Below, piece after piece: positions 16,942-30,232 of a stretch of DNA of 37,396 nucleotides. Position numbers and translations under genes: made by a program. The first letter of the stretch is position 1; each line of letters begins with the position of its first letter. The stretch covers positions 1 through 37,396 of the forward strand of contig NZ_BHZI01000016.1 in assembly GCF_004305975.1 (NCBI RefSeq). The letters run 5' to 3'. Source of the DNA: Streptomyces otsuchiensis (lineage in GTDB: Bacteria > Actinomycetota > Actinomycetes > Streptomycetales > Streptomycetaceae). Below the pieces are notes generated by a model, which saw nothing but the letters and a program-made list of their open reading frames with translations, searched no databases and was not told where the DNA came from.

Positions 16942-17883
16942 ATGACTGCCATGAGTACCAGCACAGTGGAAACCGTCCCCAGCTCCGGGGAGACCGTCCC
17001 CGCCCCCCGTCCCGCCGACCTCCACGCGCCGGTCATCGACTGGTTCGGAGAGCACGCCCGGGACCTGCCCTGGCGCCGCCCGGAGGCCGGCGCGTGGGGC
17101 GTGATGGTCAGCGAGTTCATGCTCCAGCAGACCCCCGTCAGCCGCGTGCTGCCGGTCTACGAGGAGTGGATGCGCCGCTGGCCGACCCCGGGCGACCTGG
17201 CCGCCGAGTCACCCGGCGAGGCGGTGCGGGCCTGGGGCCGCCTCGGCTACCCGCGCCGCGCGCTCCGGTTGCACTCGGCCGCCGCGGCCATAGCGGAACG
17301 CTATGAAGGCGAGGTGCCGCCCGACCATCACCTGCTGCTCGCGCTGCCCGGCGTCGGGGAGTACACGGCCGCGGCCGTCGCCTCGTTCGCCTACGGCCAG
17401 CGGCACGCGGTGCTCGACACCAACGTGCGCCGGGTCTTCGCCCGGGCCGCCGGCGGCAGCCAGTACCCGCCGAACGCCACCACCGCCGCCGAACGGCGGC
17501 TGGCCCGCGCCATGCTCCCGGACGAGCCCGGGACCGCAGCGCGCTGGGCGGCGGCCACCATGGAGCTCGGCGCCCTGGTCTGCACCGCCCGCACCCCGAA
17601 CTGCGCTGCCTGCCCGATCGCGCAGCAGTGCGCCTGGCGCCGCGCGGGAGCCCCCGCCCACGACGGTCCGGAGCGGCGCGGCCAGACCTACGCCGGCACC
17701 GACCGGCAGGTCCGCGGCAAGCTGCTGGCGGTGCTGCGCGAGTCGGTGGACCCGGTGACCCGGGCGGCGCTGGACCGGGTGTGGAACAAGCCGGAACAGC
17801 GCAACCGCGCGCTGCGCGGGCTGATCACCGACGGGCTGGTGGAGCGGCTGCCGGACGGCACCTACCGGCTCCCCGGCAGCTAG
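16942..17883 (+). CDS. mutY: A/G-specific adenine glycosylase (short form)
   Basis: A 313-residue HhH-GPD glycosylase that removes adenine opposite 8-oxoguanine or G. The core is intact: catalytic E58 in SEFMLQQTPVSR, the helix-hairpin-helix LPGVGEYTAAAVASFAYG, catalytic D159 in LDTNVRRV, and the iron-sulfur loop C214-x6-C221-x2-C224-x5-C230. Unlike E. coli MutY it lacks the C-terminal NUDIX-like domain that recognises 8-oxoG; after the cluster there are only about 80 residues, predicted as a small winged-helix-like tail. This short form is usual in Streptomyces. The start is ATG 16942; ATG 16951 is possible. A strong hairpin terminator follows at 17913. Confidence 0.94.
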   Translation: MTAMSTSTVETVPSSGETVPAPRPADLHAPVIDWFGEHARDLPWRRPEAGAWGVMVSEFMLQQTPVSRVLPVYEEWMRRWPTPGDLAAESPGEAVRAWGRLGYPRRALRLHSAAAAIAERYEGEVPPDHHLLLALPGVGEYTAAAVASFAYGQRHAVLDTNVRRVFARAAGGSQYPPNATTAAERRLARAMLPDEPGTAARWAAATMELGALVCTARTPNCAACPIAQQCAWRRAGAPAHDGPERRGQTYAGTDRQVRGKLLAVLRESVDPVTRAALDRVWNKPEQRNRALRGLITDGLVERLPDGTYRLPGS

Positions 17884-18072: not shown

Positions 18073-18426
18073 ATGACCCAGTCCTGCGATCGGTCCGAGG
18101 CGTCGGCCCACGCCGAGGAGGACGTCACGATCGACCTCGACGTGCTCTCGGTCGCGGTCGGCGACGATCCGTTCGCCACCCGGCGGGCGACGGACCGCAC
18201 TCTCGGCCACCTGCACCGGGCACGGGTGGAACGCCGGCTCATCGACCCCGGCTCCTGCGGGCTCGGCCCGATCGGGCACCTGTGGCTGTTTCGCGATTCG
18301 GCGGTTCGCGGTTCGGCGGTTCGCGGTTCGGCGGTTCGCGGTCAGCGCACCGGGAGGAGCGGCGGCTCGATGTCCCAGATGACCATCGCCGCCTCGCCCT
18401 CGTGGTCGCCGCCGGTGGCCGCGTAG
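18073..18426 (+). CDS. Hypothetical small protein with repeated C-terminal tail
   Basis: 117 residues. The first 70 look like genuine coding sequence: GC-biased third positions, a strong GGGGGAG site 6 nt before ATG 18073, and a sensible acidic/helical protein (EDVTIDLDVLSVAVGDDPFATRRATDRTLGHL). I do not recognise the family. From about residue 75 the frame enters a 15-bp tandem repeat giving AVRGS units, and the last 85 bp run antisense to the end of the GNAT gene. The ancestral stop may have been lost through repeat expansion, so the true C terminus could be new sequence. The overlap makes the 3' end the least certain part. Confidence 0.5.
   Translation: MTQSCDRSEASAHAEEDVTIDLDVLSVAVGDDPFATRRATDRTLGHLHRARVERRLIDPGSCGLGPIGHLWLFRDSAVRGSAVRGSAVRGQRTGRSGGSMSQMTIAASPSWSPPVAA
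18301..18341. repeat. 15-bp tandem repeat at a convergent gene junction
   Basis: GCGGTTCGCGGTTCG is perfect at 18301-18315 and 18316-18330, with a partial copy at 18331-18341 and a diverged one before 18301. The array ends directly at the GNAT stop codon (18342-18344) and lies in frame with the upstream plus-strand gene. Confidence 0.8.
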
Positions 18427-18851
18427 GTGCGCAGCGCGGCGTCGTTGTCCGTGTCGAGACCGACCCACATGCCGTAGCAGCCGCGTTCCCGCGCGACGGC
18501 GAGCAGCGACTCGACCAGCGCCGTGCCGATCCCGCGCCGCCGGTGCTCCTCCCCCACACCCAGTTCGTACAGCAGCATCTCGGTGCCCTTGTCGGGGTGG
18601 GTGAGCTCCACGCCGCTGATCATGCCGACCGCCGTGCCCTCCGCGAACGCGAACAGCAGGTGGTGGGTGCGTTCGGCCAGGAACCGCTCGGCCCACTCGG
18701 CGCGTACCGGTCCGTCGAACAGTGCCGACGCCGCCTGGATCTCCGCCACCGAGGCCGCCGGGCGCACCTCGACGTCCCCGGCGTGTCCCGGACTCGGCGC
18801 TGGTTCCGCGTCGAGCAGCGCCCCGGCCCGTTCCGCCTCTGTCTCAGCCAT
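18342..18851 (-). CDS. GNAT acetyltransferase, AAC(3)-I-like
   Basis: A 169-residue N-acetyltransferase with a full GNAT fold. The acetyl-CoA site is the LLYELGVGEEHRRRGIGTALVESLL stretch (Q/RxxGxG/A motif RRRGIGTA), followed by GCYGMWVGLDTDNDAALRTYAATGG. The layout, with MISGVELTHPDKGTEMLLYELGV, resembles aminoglycoside 3-N-acetyltransferase type I and its many relatives of unknown substrate; resistance activity cannot be claimed from sequence. The first 28 residues are a variable tail. ATG 18851 has GGGGAGAGG about 11 nt upstream and a TACGCT -10 on the minus strand at 18894-18899. It is divergent from the NACHT gene. Confidence 0.88.
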   Translation of the reverse strand: MAETEAERAGALLDAEPAPSPGHAGDVEVRPAASVAEIQAASALFDGPVRAEWAERFLAERTHHLLFAFAEGTAVGMISGVELTHPDKGTEMLLYELGVGEEHRRRGIGTALVESLLAVARERGCYGMWVGLDTDNDAALRTYAATGGDHEGEAAMVIWDIEPPLLPVR

Positions 18852-19023
18852 GGTCGTCGCTGCCTCTCCCCGCTCGGTTCGGCCCTTTCTGCCAGCGTAG
18901 ACGTCCGGCCGGGTGAACGCGCCGCTCGCCGGCAGGCAGTTGGACAGACCCGTATGGCCCTCTGTCACCGCCCAGTTGCCCTAGGATCACGTCACCTGTC
19001 GCGCCACCACCGCTGGGGGGCTC

Positions 19024-22000
19024 ATGGACGCCGCGAACATCGGACTACGGCTGGCGTCGAGCGCCGTGACGCCGCTGGTGAAAAGCCTGTTCCACCGCGA
19101 GGAGCCCGGGGCCGGCCTGGTCGACCGCCCGGTGCGGATCTCCTCGCTGCTCTCGTGCGGTGGCGAGCGGGACCAGCGCCGGACGCTCGACGAGAAGCGG
19201 TTGCGCACGCTGACCGTCGAGCTGGTGGACCGCGCGGCGCGGGCGCGCGGCCCGCACGAGGCGCCCGGCGCGGAGGTGCGCCGCGAGGTCGCGGACGCCC
19301 TGACCCGTTCGCTGGCGGCCCTCGGCGAGCTGTCCATGGACGACGTGCAGGCGGTCGCGCTCGGCGCGGACGGACTGGCCCGCCGGGTCCGCCGACCGGG
19401 CGGGCTGTCGGCGGAAGCCGACTCCCTCTACGATCCGCTGCTGCGTGTCGTCTGCCTGCACATCCTCAACCACTTCACCCGGCGCTCCACCTTCGTGGCC
19501 CGGTCCCTCGTCGAGCAGACCCGGCGCTGCGAATCGATCGTCGCGCGGCTCGACACCCTCGCGGCGCGGGTCCCGTCGCAGCCGATGGCGGACGCGGCAT
19601 TCGAGGACAGGTACCGCCGCTACATCGTCAACGAGCACGACCGTCTCATGATCCACGGCATCGACGCGGACGGCAGCTGGCCCCTGGACGACGCCTACCT
19701 CAGCCTGGAGACCACCACCGCCGCCGAGACCCGCGCACCACAGGAGCGCGACCTCAGCGCCACCTCTCTCCCGCCCACGCCGCGACGCGCCGAAGACGCG
19801 CTGTCCGGCCGGCCGCGCGTCCTGCTGCGCGGCAACGCCGGGTCGGGCAAGACCACCCTGCTTCAGTGGCTGGCGGTCACGGCCGCGCGGCAACGGATGG
19901 ACGGGGACAGCCCGATTCAGGCACAACTGCTCGGACTGGTGCCGTTCGTGCTGCCACTGCGCCGCCTGACCCGGCACGATCGCGAACTGCCGCCGCCGAG
20001 CGCGCTGCTCAGCGCGGTCGGCTGCCCGCACACCCCGCCCGAGGGCTGGACCGAGCGGGTACTCGGAGCCGGGCAAGGGCTGCTGCTGGTCGACGGCATC
20101 GACGAAGTGCCCGAGAACGAACGCGAGGACGTGCGGCGCTGGCTGCGTTCCCTGGTCCGCGAGTTCGGGGGCAACCTGTGGGTCGTCACCGCCCGGCCGT
20201 CCGCCGTCGGCCATGACTGGCTGGCGGAACAGGAGTTCACCGACCTCTCCCTCGCACCGATGAGCCGCGACGACACCGCCACCTTCGTCCGCCGCTGGCA
20301 CACCGCCGCACGGGTCGCCCCGGAGACCGCCGACGAGCTGCTCGACGCCCTGCGCACCCGCCCGGACCTGGCCCGGCTCGCGACCGCCCCGCTGATGTGC
20401 GGGCTGATCTGCGCACTGCACCACACCCGGCACGGCTACCTGCCGCGCGGCCGGGAGGCGCTGTACCAGGCCGGTCTCCACATGCTGCTGGAGCGCCGCA
20501 ACCAGGAACGCAAGGTCCGCTCCACCATCGAACTCGACGCCACCACGCAGATCCTGCTGTTGCAGCGACTCGCGTACTGGCTGATCCGCAACGGCCGGGC
20601 GGAGATGGACCGTGACGACGCCGTGGAGATTCTGGCCGACGCGCTGCCCGGCATGTCGCAGGTCGCGGAACAGGGCGACGAGGAGACCATCTACCGCTAT
20701 CTGCTGGACCGGTCCGGACTGCTGCGCGAACCGGCCTCGGGGGTAGTGGACTTCGTTCACCGCACCTTCCAGGACTACTTGGCGGCCAAGGCGGCGGTCG
20801 AAGCCCGCGACATCCCCTTCCTGGTGAGCCGGGCACACCTGGACCAGTTCGAGGACGTCATCCGCATGGCCGTCGCCCATGGCCGCCCCGGCGAACGGGA
20901 CCGACTGCTCAAGCAACTCGTGCAGCGCGGCGACAAGGTCGCACGCCACCGCATCCGGCTCCACCTGCTGGCCGTGGCCTGCCTGGAGCACGCCACGGAA
21001 CTCTCCCCGGCGGTCCGTGACTTGGTGACCGACCGCGCCCGCGACTACCTGCCGCCCAGAACGTACGCCGAGGCCGAGTCACTGGCTGCGGCCGGACCAG
21101 TGGCACTCGACCTGCTGCCCGGACCGGACGGGCTCAGCGGCGACGAGATGCGGGCGGTGATCGACACCGCGAGGCTTGTCGGAACCGACCGCGCGCTCCC
21201 CGTGCTGCGCCGATTCCGGTCAGTGGAGAACCGTGCTGTCGCGGCGAGACTCCTCACGTGCTGGCGGGTCTTCGACCCCGACCGCTTCTCCGAGGAGATC
21301 GTCTCCCACCTGCCACCGCATGAGTACCACTTCGTCGGCTGGAACTCCCGCGTGCTTGAACTCATCGCCGCACACGGTGGGGTGCGCCATCTGCTCACAT
21401 GGGTACCGGTCGAGCCGTCCCAGCTCCGCGCGCTGCTCGCGTACAACAGCATCGTCTCCCTTGATCTCCATGGATCACCACTCGACGACCTCGGGATTCT
21501 GAGCGCGGCGGACAGCCTGGAACAGCTCACCCTCTCCGAGAAGTCCGCGCGCGGCGGCCTGGCCCCGCTGCGAGACCGCAACCTCTCACGGCTGTACCTG
21601 TACTGCGCGAAGTCCGATGCCGACCCGCGGATCCTCGACGGCCTCGCGGAACTCTCAACGCTGGAGGATCTGGCTCTCGGCGAGATGACTCCGTTGGCCT
21701 CTCTGGAACAACTGCCACTGAACGCACCATTGAAGCGTCTCAGCCTGCCCGCCACCGCACCGGACGTGAGCGCCATCATCAGGTGGCCGGGGCTGTGCGA
21801 GCTCGACCTCACCGAGTACAGGCGACCTCTCTCCGAGGCCGAGTGCCGGGCTCTGGCCGCACTACCGGAGCTTGACGACTTCAGGCTGCGTCCGGCCGCC
21901 TTGCGCAGTCTGCACCAGGCCGGCGTAACGCTGCCCGGAGTCACCTTCGCGCAGTTGGTCCCGCGCCGGAAGCAGCCGCATTCACGAGACGAACTCGCTT

Positions 22001-22176
22001 TACTCGCAACGGTGTTCCCGGCGCTGGAGACCCTGTATCTGAGCCCCGAGCTGGAAGACCCGTCTCCCCTCGGCGAGCACCCGAGGCTGGAGACGGTCAA
22101 CTTCCTCTCGCCCGTCACCCGCCAGGACTTCCCCCCGAACCTGACCGTGACCGCCCCGCCGTCCCCGCGCTACTGA
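19024..22176 (+). CDS. NACHT-domain NTPase with C-terminal leucine-rich repeats (bacterial NLR-like)
   Basis: A 1050-residue STAND ATPase. Residues 1 to about 200 are a helical N-terminal region of the kind found before bacterial NACHT domains. The NACHT module has Walker A GNAGSGKTT (270-278), Walker B LLLVDGIDE (353-361), a sensor-like VVTARPSA, and the winged-helix motif FVHRTFQDYLAAKA (about 577-590). A helical region follows, and from about 800 leucine-rich repeats (LEQLTLSEK, LSRLYLYC, LEDLALGEM, LKRLSLPA, LCELDLTEY). This is the architecture of NLR immune receptors; bacterial NACHT proteins include proven anti-phage factors, but no effector nuclease or TIR domain is visible here. ATG 19024 follows GGGGGG; a -10-like TAGGAT is at 18982-18987. 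Codons in the LRR part are less GC-biased than in the ATPase part. Confidence 0.9.
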   Translation: MDAANIGLRLASSAVTPLVKSLFHREEPGAGLVDRPVRISSLLSCGGERDQRRTLDEKRLRTLTVELVDRAARARGPHEAPGAEVRREVADALTRSLAALGELSMDDVQAVALGADGLARRVRRPGGLSAEADSLYDPLLRVVCLHILNHFTRRSTFVARSLVEQTRRCESIVARLDTLAARVPSQPMADAAFEDRYRRYIVNEHDRLMIHGIDADGSWPLDDAYLSLETTTAAETRAPQERDLSATSLPPTPRRAEDALSGRPRVLLRGNAGSGKTTLLQWLAVTAARQRMDGDSPIQAQLLGLVPFVLPLRRLTRHDRELPPPSALLSAVGCPHTPPEGWTERVLGAGQGLLLVDGIDEVPENEREDVRRWLRSLVREFGGNLWVVTARPSAVGHDWLAEQEFTDLSLAPMSRDDTATFVRRWHTAARVAPETADELLDALRTRPDLARLATAPLMCGLICALHHTRHGYLPRGREALYQAGLHMLLERRNQERKVRSTIELDATTQILLLQRLAYWLIRNGRAEMDRDDAVEILADALPGMSQVAEQGDEETIYRYLLDRSGLLREPASGVVDFVHRTFQDYLAAKAAVEARDIPFLVSRAHLDQFEDVIRMAVAHGRPGERDRLLKQLVQRGDKVARHRIRLHLLAVACLEHATELSPAVRDLVTDRARDYLPPRTYAEAESLAAAGPVALDLLPGPDGLSGDEMRAVIDTARLVGTDRALPVLRRFRSVENRAVAARLLTCWRVFDPDRFSEEIVSHLPPHEYHFVGWNSRVLELIAAHGGVRHLLTWVPVEPSQLRALLAYNSIVSLDLHGSPLDDLGILSAADSLEQLTLSEKSARGGLAPLRDRNLSRLYLYCAKSDADPRILDGLAELSTLEDLALGEMTPLASLEQLPLNAPLKRLSLPATAPDVSAIIRWPGLCELDLTEYRRPLSEAECRALAALPELDDFRLRPAALRSLHQAGVTLPGVTFAQLVPRRKQPHSRDELALLATVFPALETLYLSPELEDPSPLGEHPRLETVNFLSPVTRQDFPPNLTVTAPPSPRY

Positions 22177-22195: not shown

Positions 22196-22558
22196 TCAGC
22201 GGTCGGGGCGGTGGCTCAGCACGTTCACGACCTTGCCGTTCGGGTCGCGGACGAAGAAGCGGCGGACGCCCCACTCCTCGTCGCGCAGGTCGCGCACGAT
22301 CTCGGCGCCCGAAGCCCGTACCTCCGCGTGGACCGCGTCCACGTCCTCGACCTCGACGGAGATGTCGGCGGGGGTCGGCGCCGTCGGGTCCTCGGTGCCG
22401 AAGGTGATCTGCGCGGTCGGGCTGGACGGGGAGGCCATGGTCATGACCCAGCCGAGGTCCATGACCTGCTCCAGGCCCAGCCGTTCGTAGAAGACACGGG
22501 AGGCGGCCATGCCGTCGGGTGTGGTCGGGATGTCGGGCACGACGCGGCGCACGGTCAC
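22196..22558 (-). CDS. VOC-superfamily (glyoxalase/bleomycin-resistance-like) protein
   Basis: A 120-residue vicinal-oxygen-chelate protein with paired beta-alpha-beta-beta-beta modules. It opens with RRVVPDIPTTPDGMAASRVFYERLGLEQVMDLGW, and the second half carries DISVEVEDVDAVHAEVRASGAEIV and the closing FFVRDPNGKVVNVLSHR. Such proteins bind small molecules or metals (glyoxalase, antibiotic-binding, dioxygenase roles); no substrate can be named. The start is GTG 22558, preceded by GAGG about 9 nt upstream; GTG 22552 is also possible. It converges with the NACHT gene, whose stop is only 19 bp away. Confidence 0.85.
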   Translation of the reverse strand: MTVRRVVPDIPTTPDGMAASRVFYERLGLEQVMDLGWVMTMASPSSPTAQITFGTEDPTAPTPADISVEVEDVDAVHAEVRASGAEIVRDLRDEEWGVRRFFVRDPNGKVVNVLSHRPDR

Positions 22559-22937
22559 AGCGGGCTGCCTCAGGTTCGGAGTGGTGGGGGTGGCGCGGAC
22601 AGCATGGACCGCCGGGTGTCCGCGCGAAGGTCGCCACCCCGCGACGGTCGCGCGAACGGCCCCCCACCCCCCGTCGTCCGGGCGGTCCCGCAGGTCAGAC
22701 GGCACTTCGGGCGGGCAACAACCCGTTTGCGTGCGGCAGCCACGAACAGGGATGATCACCGGGCGGCGCCCCGTCCCGACGTGGTGATCTTCCCCTTCCA
22801 CGACGGCACGCCCCGGCGGGCCGGACTGCGGGAGGGGCGCCGACCCGCCGGGCCGCTCAGCCGACAACTCCGCCCGATCGGCTGCTCACGCCCAGGCCGG
22901 GCACCACAGACCGAGCGCCGGCAGTGCCGCTCCGGCC
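22559..22937. other. 379-bp intergenic region between two VOC genes
   Basis: It separates two minus-strand VOC genes. I see a GATCACC...GGTGATC inverted repeat around 22755-22790 and a GC-rich repeat CCCGGCGGG...CCCGCCGGG around 22812-22857 that could form a weak terminator for the upstream VOC gene. No credible ORF, RNA gene or mobile element was found. Confidence 0.4.

Positions 22938-27706: not shown

Positions 27707-30232
<2,526 letters not shown>

Follow-up and report, generated by a model that had tools for sequence, protein, structure and literature searches.

The stretch of DNA analysed here (37,396 nucleotides, positions 1 to 37,396 of contig NZ_BHZI01000016.1 of Streptomyces otsuchiensis; hereafter the window) carries at positions 19024..22176 of the forward strand a single gene encoding a protein of 1050 amino acids (aa), with an N-terminal NNH1 domain, a NACHT ATPase and C-terminal leucine-rich repeats (LRRs). 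Judged by its sequence, the product is a real and well-formed bacterial NLR (nucleotide-binding and leucine-rich repeat protein), combining NNH1, an intact NACHT and C-terminal LRRs. We think it fairly probable that this single-gene NLR is an intracellular immune receptor with sensing, switching and output functions and with LRRs exchanged between lineages. Its parts, its accessory status, the reuse of the same chassis with other N-termini and, at one locus, the replacement of the hinge and LRR regions were observed directly in the genomes compared. Bacterial NACHT-LRR proteins have already been reported; the evolutionary pattern of this one is unusual and testable.

The gene has an ATG start and an open, complete reading frame, and its start and stop were reproduced exactly (19024-22176) by a codon-position gene finder, a crude tool whose start calls may be off. 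A run of the ribosome-binding type (GGGGGG) lies just upstream, at 19015-19020. The effector or adaptor slot at the N-terminus is filled by NNH1 (Pfam PF22733; about residues 7-180, 19042..19563), a nearly full-length match with E=2.7e-43 and 148.6 bits for a cut-off of 27. It is followed by a conserved linker (about residues 186-258, 19579..19797, with FEDRY... and WPLDDAYLSLE), delimited on an alignment of 40 sequences that includes the window protein and located close to the start of the homology shared with NACHT proteins that have other N-termini. The NACHT domain (PF05729) covers residues 266-428 (19819..20307; E=4.3e-28, far over the cut-off). The initial annotation, made from the letters alone, had described a complete NACHT ATPase, and this was borne out: the Walker A motif GNAGSGKTT (19831..19857), the Walker B motif LLLVDGIDE (20080..20106) and the motif FVHRTFQDYLAAKA at the end of the NACHT module (20752..20793) are all present, with key residues invariant in the 40 sequences (G270, G273, G275, K276 and T278; D357, D360 and E361; H579, T581, F582 and D584, respectively). 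A hinge and LRR sensor part (about residues 700-1025, 21121..22098) and the last 25 or so codons (22099..22173) complete the protein, all these features being on the forward strand.

The C-terminal LRRs, also proposed by the initial annotation, are clear for the family as a profile and weak for the window protein alone. The latter has no Pfam LRR match at E<=0.1, and a phmmer search aligned its residues 800-921 only weakly with the LRR protein of PDB entry 5il7 (E=0.0015). A profile built from the 40-sequence alignment, in turn, aligns with LRR proteins of known structure over about positions 800-1040 (5il7 at E=3.3e-20; internalins). Pfam LRR_4 is found at E<=0.01 in 19 of the 40 aligned members (the window protein not being one of these 19), while NNH1 is present in all 40. 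According to PMC12169576, bacteria encode NACHT modules and LRRs in one reading frame, as 'bona fide bacterial NLRs'. The window protein has the intact NACHT NTPase and, on the strength of the family profile, the LRRs of such proteins, and NNH1 would be its distinct N-terminal effector or adaptor module, replaced by trypsin-like or helix-turn-helix (HTH) domains in homologues.

The position of the window gene is also occupied in three related species, S. spiramenti (locus L032), S. bohaiensis (L033) and S. lonarensis (L039), among which the hinge and LRR part differs wholesale. Between S. spiramenti and S. bohaiensis, amino acid identity reaches 93% in NNH1, 96% in NACHT and 97% in the post-NACHT region, versus 54% in the hinge and 31% in the LRR. 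DNA identity runs at 92-99% through NNH1 and NACHT, is 39-61% over about positions 8160-9050 of L032 and is back to 93-95% over the last codons and the downstream VOC gene. The equivalent 3' end of the gene has about 95% DNA identity among the three species (61% between L032 and the window), and the last 25 residues of L032 and L039 are identical (25/25). The contrast is milder between S. spiramenti and S. lonarensis, with 68% aa identity in the LRR and a DNA minimum of 57%. Since synonymous divergence (dS) is unreliable at 31% identity, silent differences were counted at fourfold-degenerate third positions of identical residues only. For S. spiramenti and S. bohaiensis, they amount to 40 of 446 in the core (9%) versus 32 of 70 in the hinge and LRR (46%; Fisher p=1e-12). 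The second pair gives 54/436 (12%) versus 54/152 (36%; p=2e-9) and the third 61/435 (14%) versus 39/66 (59%; p=2e-14). As silent sites jump too, amino acid selection alone is insufficient, and the import of a diverged cassette would fit. At this one locus, the hinge and LRR region therefore looks exchanged as a cassette.

Several results weigh against such an exchange, and some of them favour another explanation, in which the LRR divergence reflects accelerated point mutation or relaxed constraint. The silent-site jump was seen at a single locus. In L025/L027, the only other long pair with cores more than 90% identical, the LRRs are 91% identical; in the other long pairs (cores 78-88%), LRR identity is 30-63% and LRR dS rises only 1.2-3.1-fold over core dS. 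A search of 295 genomes yielded no close donor for the exchanged LRR, the best match outside the own genome having 36% identity. Moreover, the S. bohaiensis copy stops early (L033:8600-9110), with what remains of its LRR, and the conserved end of the gene, in another frame, so that constraint may be relaxed there; an assembly error may also be the cause. Finally, both alignments and dS are unreliable at 31% aa identity. Point mutation or relaxed constraint nevertheless seems an unlikely explanation, given the jump at silent sites of identical residues, the sharp boundary, the recovery of about 95% identity over the end of the gene and the gene after it, and the fact that L032 and L039, both with full-length frames, show this jump. 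The three natural alleles, two full-length and one ending early, differ mostly in the LRR and make LRR recognition by a bacterial protein testable.

We then compared members of the family (core match >450 bits, NNH1 match >120 bits, >780 aa, non-redundant; 67 members plus the window protein), in pairs with at least 60% core identity and at least 80 aligned C-terminal residues. Among the 47 long members (>=960 aa), identity is 66% in the core versus 31% in the C-terminal part (384 pairs). Among the 19 short ones (<900 aa), the values are 73% and 69% (26 pairs), two members of intermediate length being left out.

The initial annotation had seen no effector in the N-terminal region. This holds insofar as Pfam detects neither a nuclease nor a TIR or protease domain within residues 1-200 of the window protein, and fails insofar as a curated domain is present there. 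The "missing effector" would be the named and uncharacterised helical domain NNH1, which is probably non-enzymatic. We know of no tested function for PF22733, and we found no description of any activity for NNH1, common as it is in the genus (29 of the 48 genomes assembled into 10 contigs or fewer). Across 117 non-redundant NNH1 segments, only D107 and C144 among the polar columns of residues 1-180 reach 90% conservation, the other conserved columns being mostly L, A, G and P. The linker is better kept than NNH1 itself, with F193 and Y197 at 100% (invariant in the 115 segments covering them), E194 at 96% and D190 at 94%. In a diverged branch of the family, all nine sequences have other residues aligned with H146 and R154; D107 is also missing in eight of the nine, but a one-residue shift of the alignment could restore it. 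Pfam still assigns NNH1 to a member of this branch (L145, 165.7 bits, the only one of the nine scanned as a protein). The NNH1 profile derived from the window misses the branch (27 bits for L145), so our results on identity, silent sites and conservation in the 117 segments concern the window's own branch. The few conserved polar residues and the loss of H146 and R154 in the diverged branch make a structural or signalling module likelier than an enzyme.

NNH1 might nonetheless be an unrecognised enzyme of the same receptor (e.g. a nuclease or hydrolase), with a site including D107, H146 and R154. These three residues, which speak against a non-catalytic NNH1, are invariant in the 40 sequences and conserved at 91, 88 and 89% in the 117 segments, and the same slot can hold a trypsin-like enzyme. 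We consider this alternative improbable, in view of the scarcity of conserved polar columns, the replacement of H146 and R154 in the diverged branch and the absence of any enzyme family matching NNH1 in Pfam. The order of the residues, H then R, is also unlike that of the HEPN motif (Rx4-6H). As D107, H146 and R154 are kept in the window's branch, NNH1 may be an enzyme restricted to that branch. The non-catalytic reading is not helped either by the search of PDB sequences with the NNH1 profile, in which the best match was an LRR protein at E=0.015 and no solved structure stood out as a credible relative, or by the hydrophobic moments of the first NNH1 helix, which are ordinary, as was the outcome of an N-terminal amphipathic and transmembrane analysis. 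Pore-forming, resistosome-like NLRs (plant CC, fungal HeLo) have an N-terminal helical bundle with a membrane-inserting first helix; NNH1 may or may not be of this type, its first-helix moment being ordinary and the PDB search having given no sequence relative.

Next, we looked at the location and distribution of the gene. It lies in the interval between a gene for an A/G-specific glycosylase, presumably mutY (16966..17883, forward strand, from the gene finder), and a gene that we take to be clpC (27707..30232, reverse strand, from the comparison of loci), at 5.5 kb from the latter. In many other species, relatives directly adjoin the 3' end of clpC and are convergent with it. To describe this site, 20 kb beside clpC were taken from each of 50 loci, i.e. 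those of the 48 genomes of the genus assembled into 10 contigs or fewer (with a completeness of 78% in one case) and two genomes added by choice (G037 and G043). A NACHT gene of the window's family is absent from 22 of the 50 loci, present once in 23 and twice in 5, some copies being broken; for the 48 genomes alone, the counts are 21, 22 and 5 (27/48 occupied). Arrays of three such genes also occur beside clpC (e.g. L051, L052 and L154). From the 46 NNH1 matches in the 48 genomes, 22 (in 20 genomes) are within 20 kb of clpC, all at 1.5-7.7 kb, for about 0.2 expected by chance (simple arithmetic, 40 kb in 8.5 Mb). In a second set of 29 loci, chosen by hand among the 56 NNH1 matches of an order-level draw (the gene finder called no NACHT gene in L160 and L181), clpC is present in 13. 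The clpC end of the mutY-clpC interval is thus a recurrent NACHT site in the genus, and it offers an easy starting point when Streptomyces genomes are searched for further immune receptors. The initial annotation had described an isolated accessory gene in conserved chromosome: the gene does stand alone between its GNAT and VOC neighbours, but within an interval that harbours this recurrent site.

The NNH1 gene is common in the genus and far from universal. The whole protein finds a match at E<=1e-100 in 186 of 295 genomes of the genus (own genome included), often two per genome; this search scored two candidates per genome on whole-protein matches, and these are not counts of NNH1. NNH1 was absent from all 14 control genomes and was found in 30 of 60 genomes (own included) and 3 of 5 genera in an order-level draw, and in 6 of 198 genomes in a phylum-wide draw, five of the six belonging to the same genus (own included). 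Changes at the clpC site were counted on a 51-row tree that does not include S. spiramenti, S. bohaiensis or S. lonarensis; nine of its rows have less than half of the columns. Presence or absence of the gene requires 16 changes there, and for the empty state no fewer than 12 are imposed by starred branches. In the row nearest to the window (G037), the GNAT gene is directly followed by a Tag gene, with neither a NACHT nor a VOC gene between them. The patchy distribution that the initial annotation had anticipated is therefore seen in the 29 of 48 genomes, in the 16 changes and in this empty position; universal conservation with slow evolution, which it held to be incompatible with a defence role, was not found, the gene being far from universal and its divergence concentrated in the LRR. 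The NNH1 label itself is clustered on the tree (12 changes versus 16.4 on average for shuffled labels, 8 of 500 shuffles being as low), loci L068 and L111, with both types of occupant, being labelled NNH1. A likely relic was also detected at G067:C1:4346775-4346975 (in L095), an NNH1 fragment (42 bits) in an open frame of 152 aa. It lies some 1.5 kb from clpC, and NNH1 has no further match in that genome. Taken on sequence grounds, comparative genomics supports an accessory gene of the immune type.

The clpC site also reveals that NNH1 fills an exchangeable slot. In 10 of the 50 clpC loci, a homologous NACHT gene lacks NNH1 (28-41 bits with the NNH1 profile versus 176-376 for members), and Pfam finds no NNH1 at these genes in the ten genomes. 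A small open reading frame (ORF) of 111-152 aa lies upstream of such a gene in all ten loci, in L109 only of a broken copy. A trypsin-like domain passes the Pfam cut-off in eight of the ten NACHT proteins (L068, L074, L076, L085, L087, L090, L094 and L111) and was not found by Pfam in the L101 and L109 genes as called. The eight small ORFs scanned all contain Trypco2 (those of L085 and L094 were outside the scan), and L068 and L111 hold both the NNH1 and the trypsin-like type. The presence of trypsin-NACHT and Trypco2 genes at the same site indicates that NNH1 can be exchanged there for another module. Homologues were also found in 14 plasmid records, of which 5 are predicted to be mobilizable. 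Homology to the window protein begins at residues 182-192 in 8 of the 14 plasmid matches. The chassis can also start with a Cro/C1 HTH, as seen in all four such proteins scanned, from Streptomyces plasmids (L124:2719-5673, L125:2695-5610, L126:2734-5634 and L129:2776-4938). On plasmid L127, the chassis follows an annotated trypco2 gene, with a trypsin match just below the cut-off. With NNH1, trypsin-like or HTH starts on one chassis, residues 1 to about 185 form a replaceable module in the effector position.

Just upstream of the four plasmid HTH-NACHT genes, and divergent from them, is a very hydrophobic ORF of 69-80 aa (no Pfam match in the two scanned), and the arrangement resembles the pairing of a small membrane protein with a regulator or guard. 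The window gene could also be thought of as a transcriptional or developmental regulator of the STAND type, serving a housekeeping role, as STAND regulators are common in Streptomyces and plasmid relatives start with an HTH. This seems very unlikely to us: scans with Pfam and NCBIfam-type profiles detected no DNA-binding (HTH) domain in the window protein, so that the membership of a STAND regulatory family envisaged by the initial annotation received no support, NNH1 is absent from 19 of the 48 genomes, gain or loss at the clpC site is frequent, and the sensor is replaced.

For the immune receptor that we favour, the families to which its parts belong suggest how sensing, oligomerisation and output might proceed. 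The LRR would recognise a molecule derived from a phage or plasmid, or altered by an invader. Recognition would free the NACHT switch, which would bind ATP and oligomerise, and the clustered NNH1 domains would then produce the output, i.e. growth arrest or death. NNH1 would most likely be a non-catalytic helical signalling module that works once clustered; it would then act on the membrane directly or recruit a host protein whose gene lies elsewhere. LRR cassettes would be swapped by homologous recombination, with the conserved NACHT part on one side and, on the other, the conserved end of the gene or the flank downstream, and lineages would thereby acquire different recognition specificities.

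Further results count against an immune receptor of this kind. The best match of the window protein among the PADLOC defence models has E=0.0035 over 32 residues, at the level of the P-loop only, and the phage record collection contains no match to it (in viral contigs, a single NACHT-level relative with 28% identity was found). The Cro/C1 HTH version suggests that some relatives may be regulators. At the clpC site, shuffled labels need 16.8 changes on average, so the empty state, with its 16 changes, is no more clustered than by chance. Lastly, 24 of the 46 NNH1 matches are not within 20 kb of clpC; two of these (L138 and L139) adjoin the TetR and MFS genes known as neighbours of the clpC site at other loci. 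The NCBIfam model of the antiphage protein EruA (NF058535) also matches the window protein only weakly, at 34.7 bits for a cut-off of 1000.

Like fungal NLRs, the receptor could also serve in the recognition of kin or of self and non-self (allorecognition, plasmid or hyphal incompatibility), and not in phage defence. Incompatibility genes show allele-like replacement of the recognition part, as observed here at a fixed position; homologues are carried by plasmids, 5 of 14 being predicted mobilizable; and NNH1 is centred on a hyphal genus (5 of the 6 positive genomes among the 198 drawn phylum-wide, own included). On the other hand, no recurrent partner gene accompanies the NNH1 genes at the clpC site, where a cognate polymorphic gene was sought in the flanks only, and we judge this role to be quite unlikely.

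The proximity of clpC raises another hypothesis, namely that these NACHT proteins guard chaperones and monitor ClpC or proteostasis. For bNACHT25, sensing of DnaJ is described in PMC12169576. NNH1 lies within 20 kb of clpC in 20 of the 48 genomes, and clpC was found in 13 of the 29 hand-picked loci; elsewhere, an NNH1-NACHT gene is convergent beside hspR-dnaJ-like genes (L137:4673-9579) and another is one gene away from an Hsp90-like gene (L143:7603-15456). However, DnaJ-, HspR- or Hsp90-like genes were seen at only 2 of 40 loci away from clpC, within the sequence fetched and shown (2/24, where Hsp90 was spotted by eye, and 0/16). The clpC neighbour is convergent in the occupied loci of the set of 50, and the window gene is 5.5 kb from clpC. 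Defence by bNACHT25 is, moreover, reported as unchanged in E. coli with a clpA/X deletion (PMC12169576). Chaperone guarding is thus extremely improbable.

A broader reading, which we find possible if somewhat doubtful, is that the Streptomyces chromosome maintains an NLR locus in the manner of a plant resistance-gene cluster. Its fixed site, next to clpC or inside the mutY-clpC interval, would house between one and three NACHT receptors, each with an exchangeable executor (NNH1, or trypsin with Trypco2) and an LRR cassette swapped by recombination across conserved flanking sequence, and related species would hold different receptor alleles at a locus that is otherwise about 95% identical. This would be a recombination-driven recognition repertoire in a bacterial NLR, obtained without a reverse transcriptase. 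If true, bacteria would share the evolutionary solution of plant and fungal NLRs, in which the switch and executor are kept and the LRR changes. In a literature search limited to the titles and abstract openings listed, with most subscription papers outside its coverage, neither a NACHT site beside clpC nor LRR exchange in a bacterial NLR was found described.

Compared with known systems, the window protein shares with bNACHT proteins the tripartite order of an N-terminal module, NACHT and a C-terminal sensor (PMC12169576). Its family differs from them by the N-terminal NNH1, by its centring on Streptomyces in our draws and by an LRR replaced between related species. The same source lists defence NACHTs of clade 14 without a readily discernible effector. 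A CARD-NLR-like system is the subject of PMC13236601. For the N-terminus, we saw no difference from Pfam NNH1 (NACHT N-terminal Helical domain 1, PF22733), which it matches over nearly its full length. The trypsin-NACHT proteins accompanied by Trypco2 at the clpC site have homologous NACHT and post-NACHT regions and some LRR matches; they differ by their own trypsin-like N-terminus and by a small partner gene, where the window protein has NNH1. Trypco genes next to trypsins, as well as conflict systems in multicellular prokaryotes, are described in PMC7159879. The plasmid Cro/C1 HTH-NACHT proteins are homologous from residues 182-192 (L124-L126) or 159 (L129) onwards, with LRR matches in L124-L126, and differ by the HTH in the place of NNH1 and by the divergent hydrophobic ORF. 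Retroelement-diversified sensors on NACHT proteins are reported in PMC10907252. These sensors, varied by diversity-generating retroelements on NACHT/STAND proteins, likewise join a constant NTPase to a variable sensor in multicellular hosts; there, the retroelement varies a C-type lectin domain, whereas the window family has LRRs and a recombination-like mosaic. One further NACHT-level relative is present in the window's own genome (G000:C48:8761-9813, 29% identity over residues 259-592). Animal and plant NLRs have a switch and an LRR sensor, form clusters and show hypervariable LRRs; the window family resembles them in these respects, as a matter of layout alone.

Finally, we considered the neighbouring genes as possible partners. 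The window gene has a divergent GNAT acetyltransferase gene on one side (18342..18968, reverse strand; start called at 18767 by the gene finder) and a convergent VOC/glyoxalase-fold gene on the other (22196..22867, reverse strand; called as 22196-22558), both outside the system. The recurrent neighbours of the clpC site (acid-phosphatase, TetR and MFS genes, and one that we take to be M23-peptidase-like) are also present where the NACHT gene is absent, and a separately encoded effector beside the gene was set aside for this reason. Single exceptions include a 523-aa ORF in L067 and a 341-aa ORF in L078, the latter with no Pfam match. Since the gene is alone at the clpC site and its neighbours are kept at empty sites, the output probably resides in NNH1 or in a host protein encoded elsewhere.

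Other members of the family have different surroundings. In L146 (12481-16254), the NNH1-NACHT gene is followed by two genes in the same direction, and the same pair occurs in L042, L058, L148, L149 and L178. In the L146 copy, the one scanned with Pfam, one gene encodes a P-loop protein (AAA_16, below the cut-off) and the other a protein that is hydrophobic in an N-terminal stretch and matches Peripla_BP_6 weakly; these proteins of the six loci may be partners of NNH1-NACHT. In L145, L169 and L171, NACHT relatives (with a diverged NNH1 in L145) lie beside a conserved set of small roadblock/GTPase-like genes, presumably a conservon. A diverged NNH1-NACHT subfamily, scoring 97-120 bits with our own NNH1 profile and having recurring neighbours, occupies another site in L134, L150-L153, L172 and L175.

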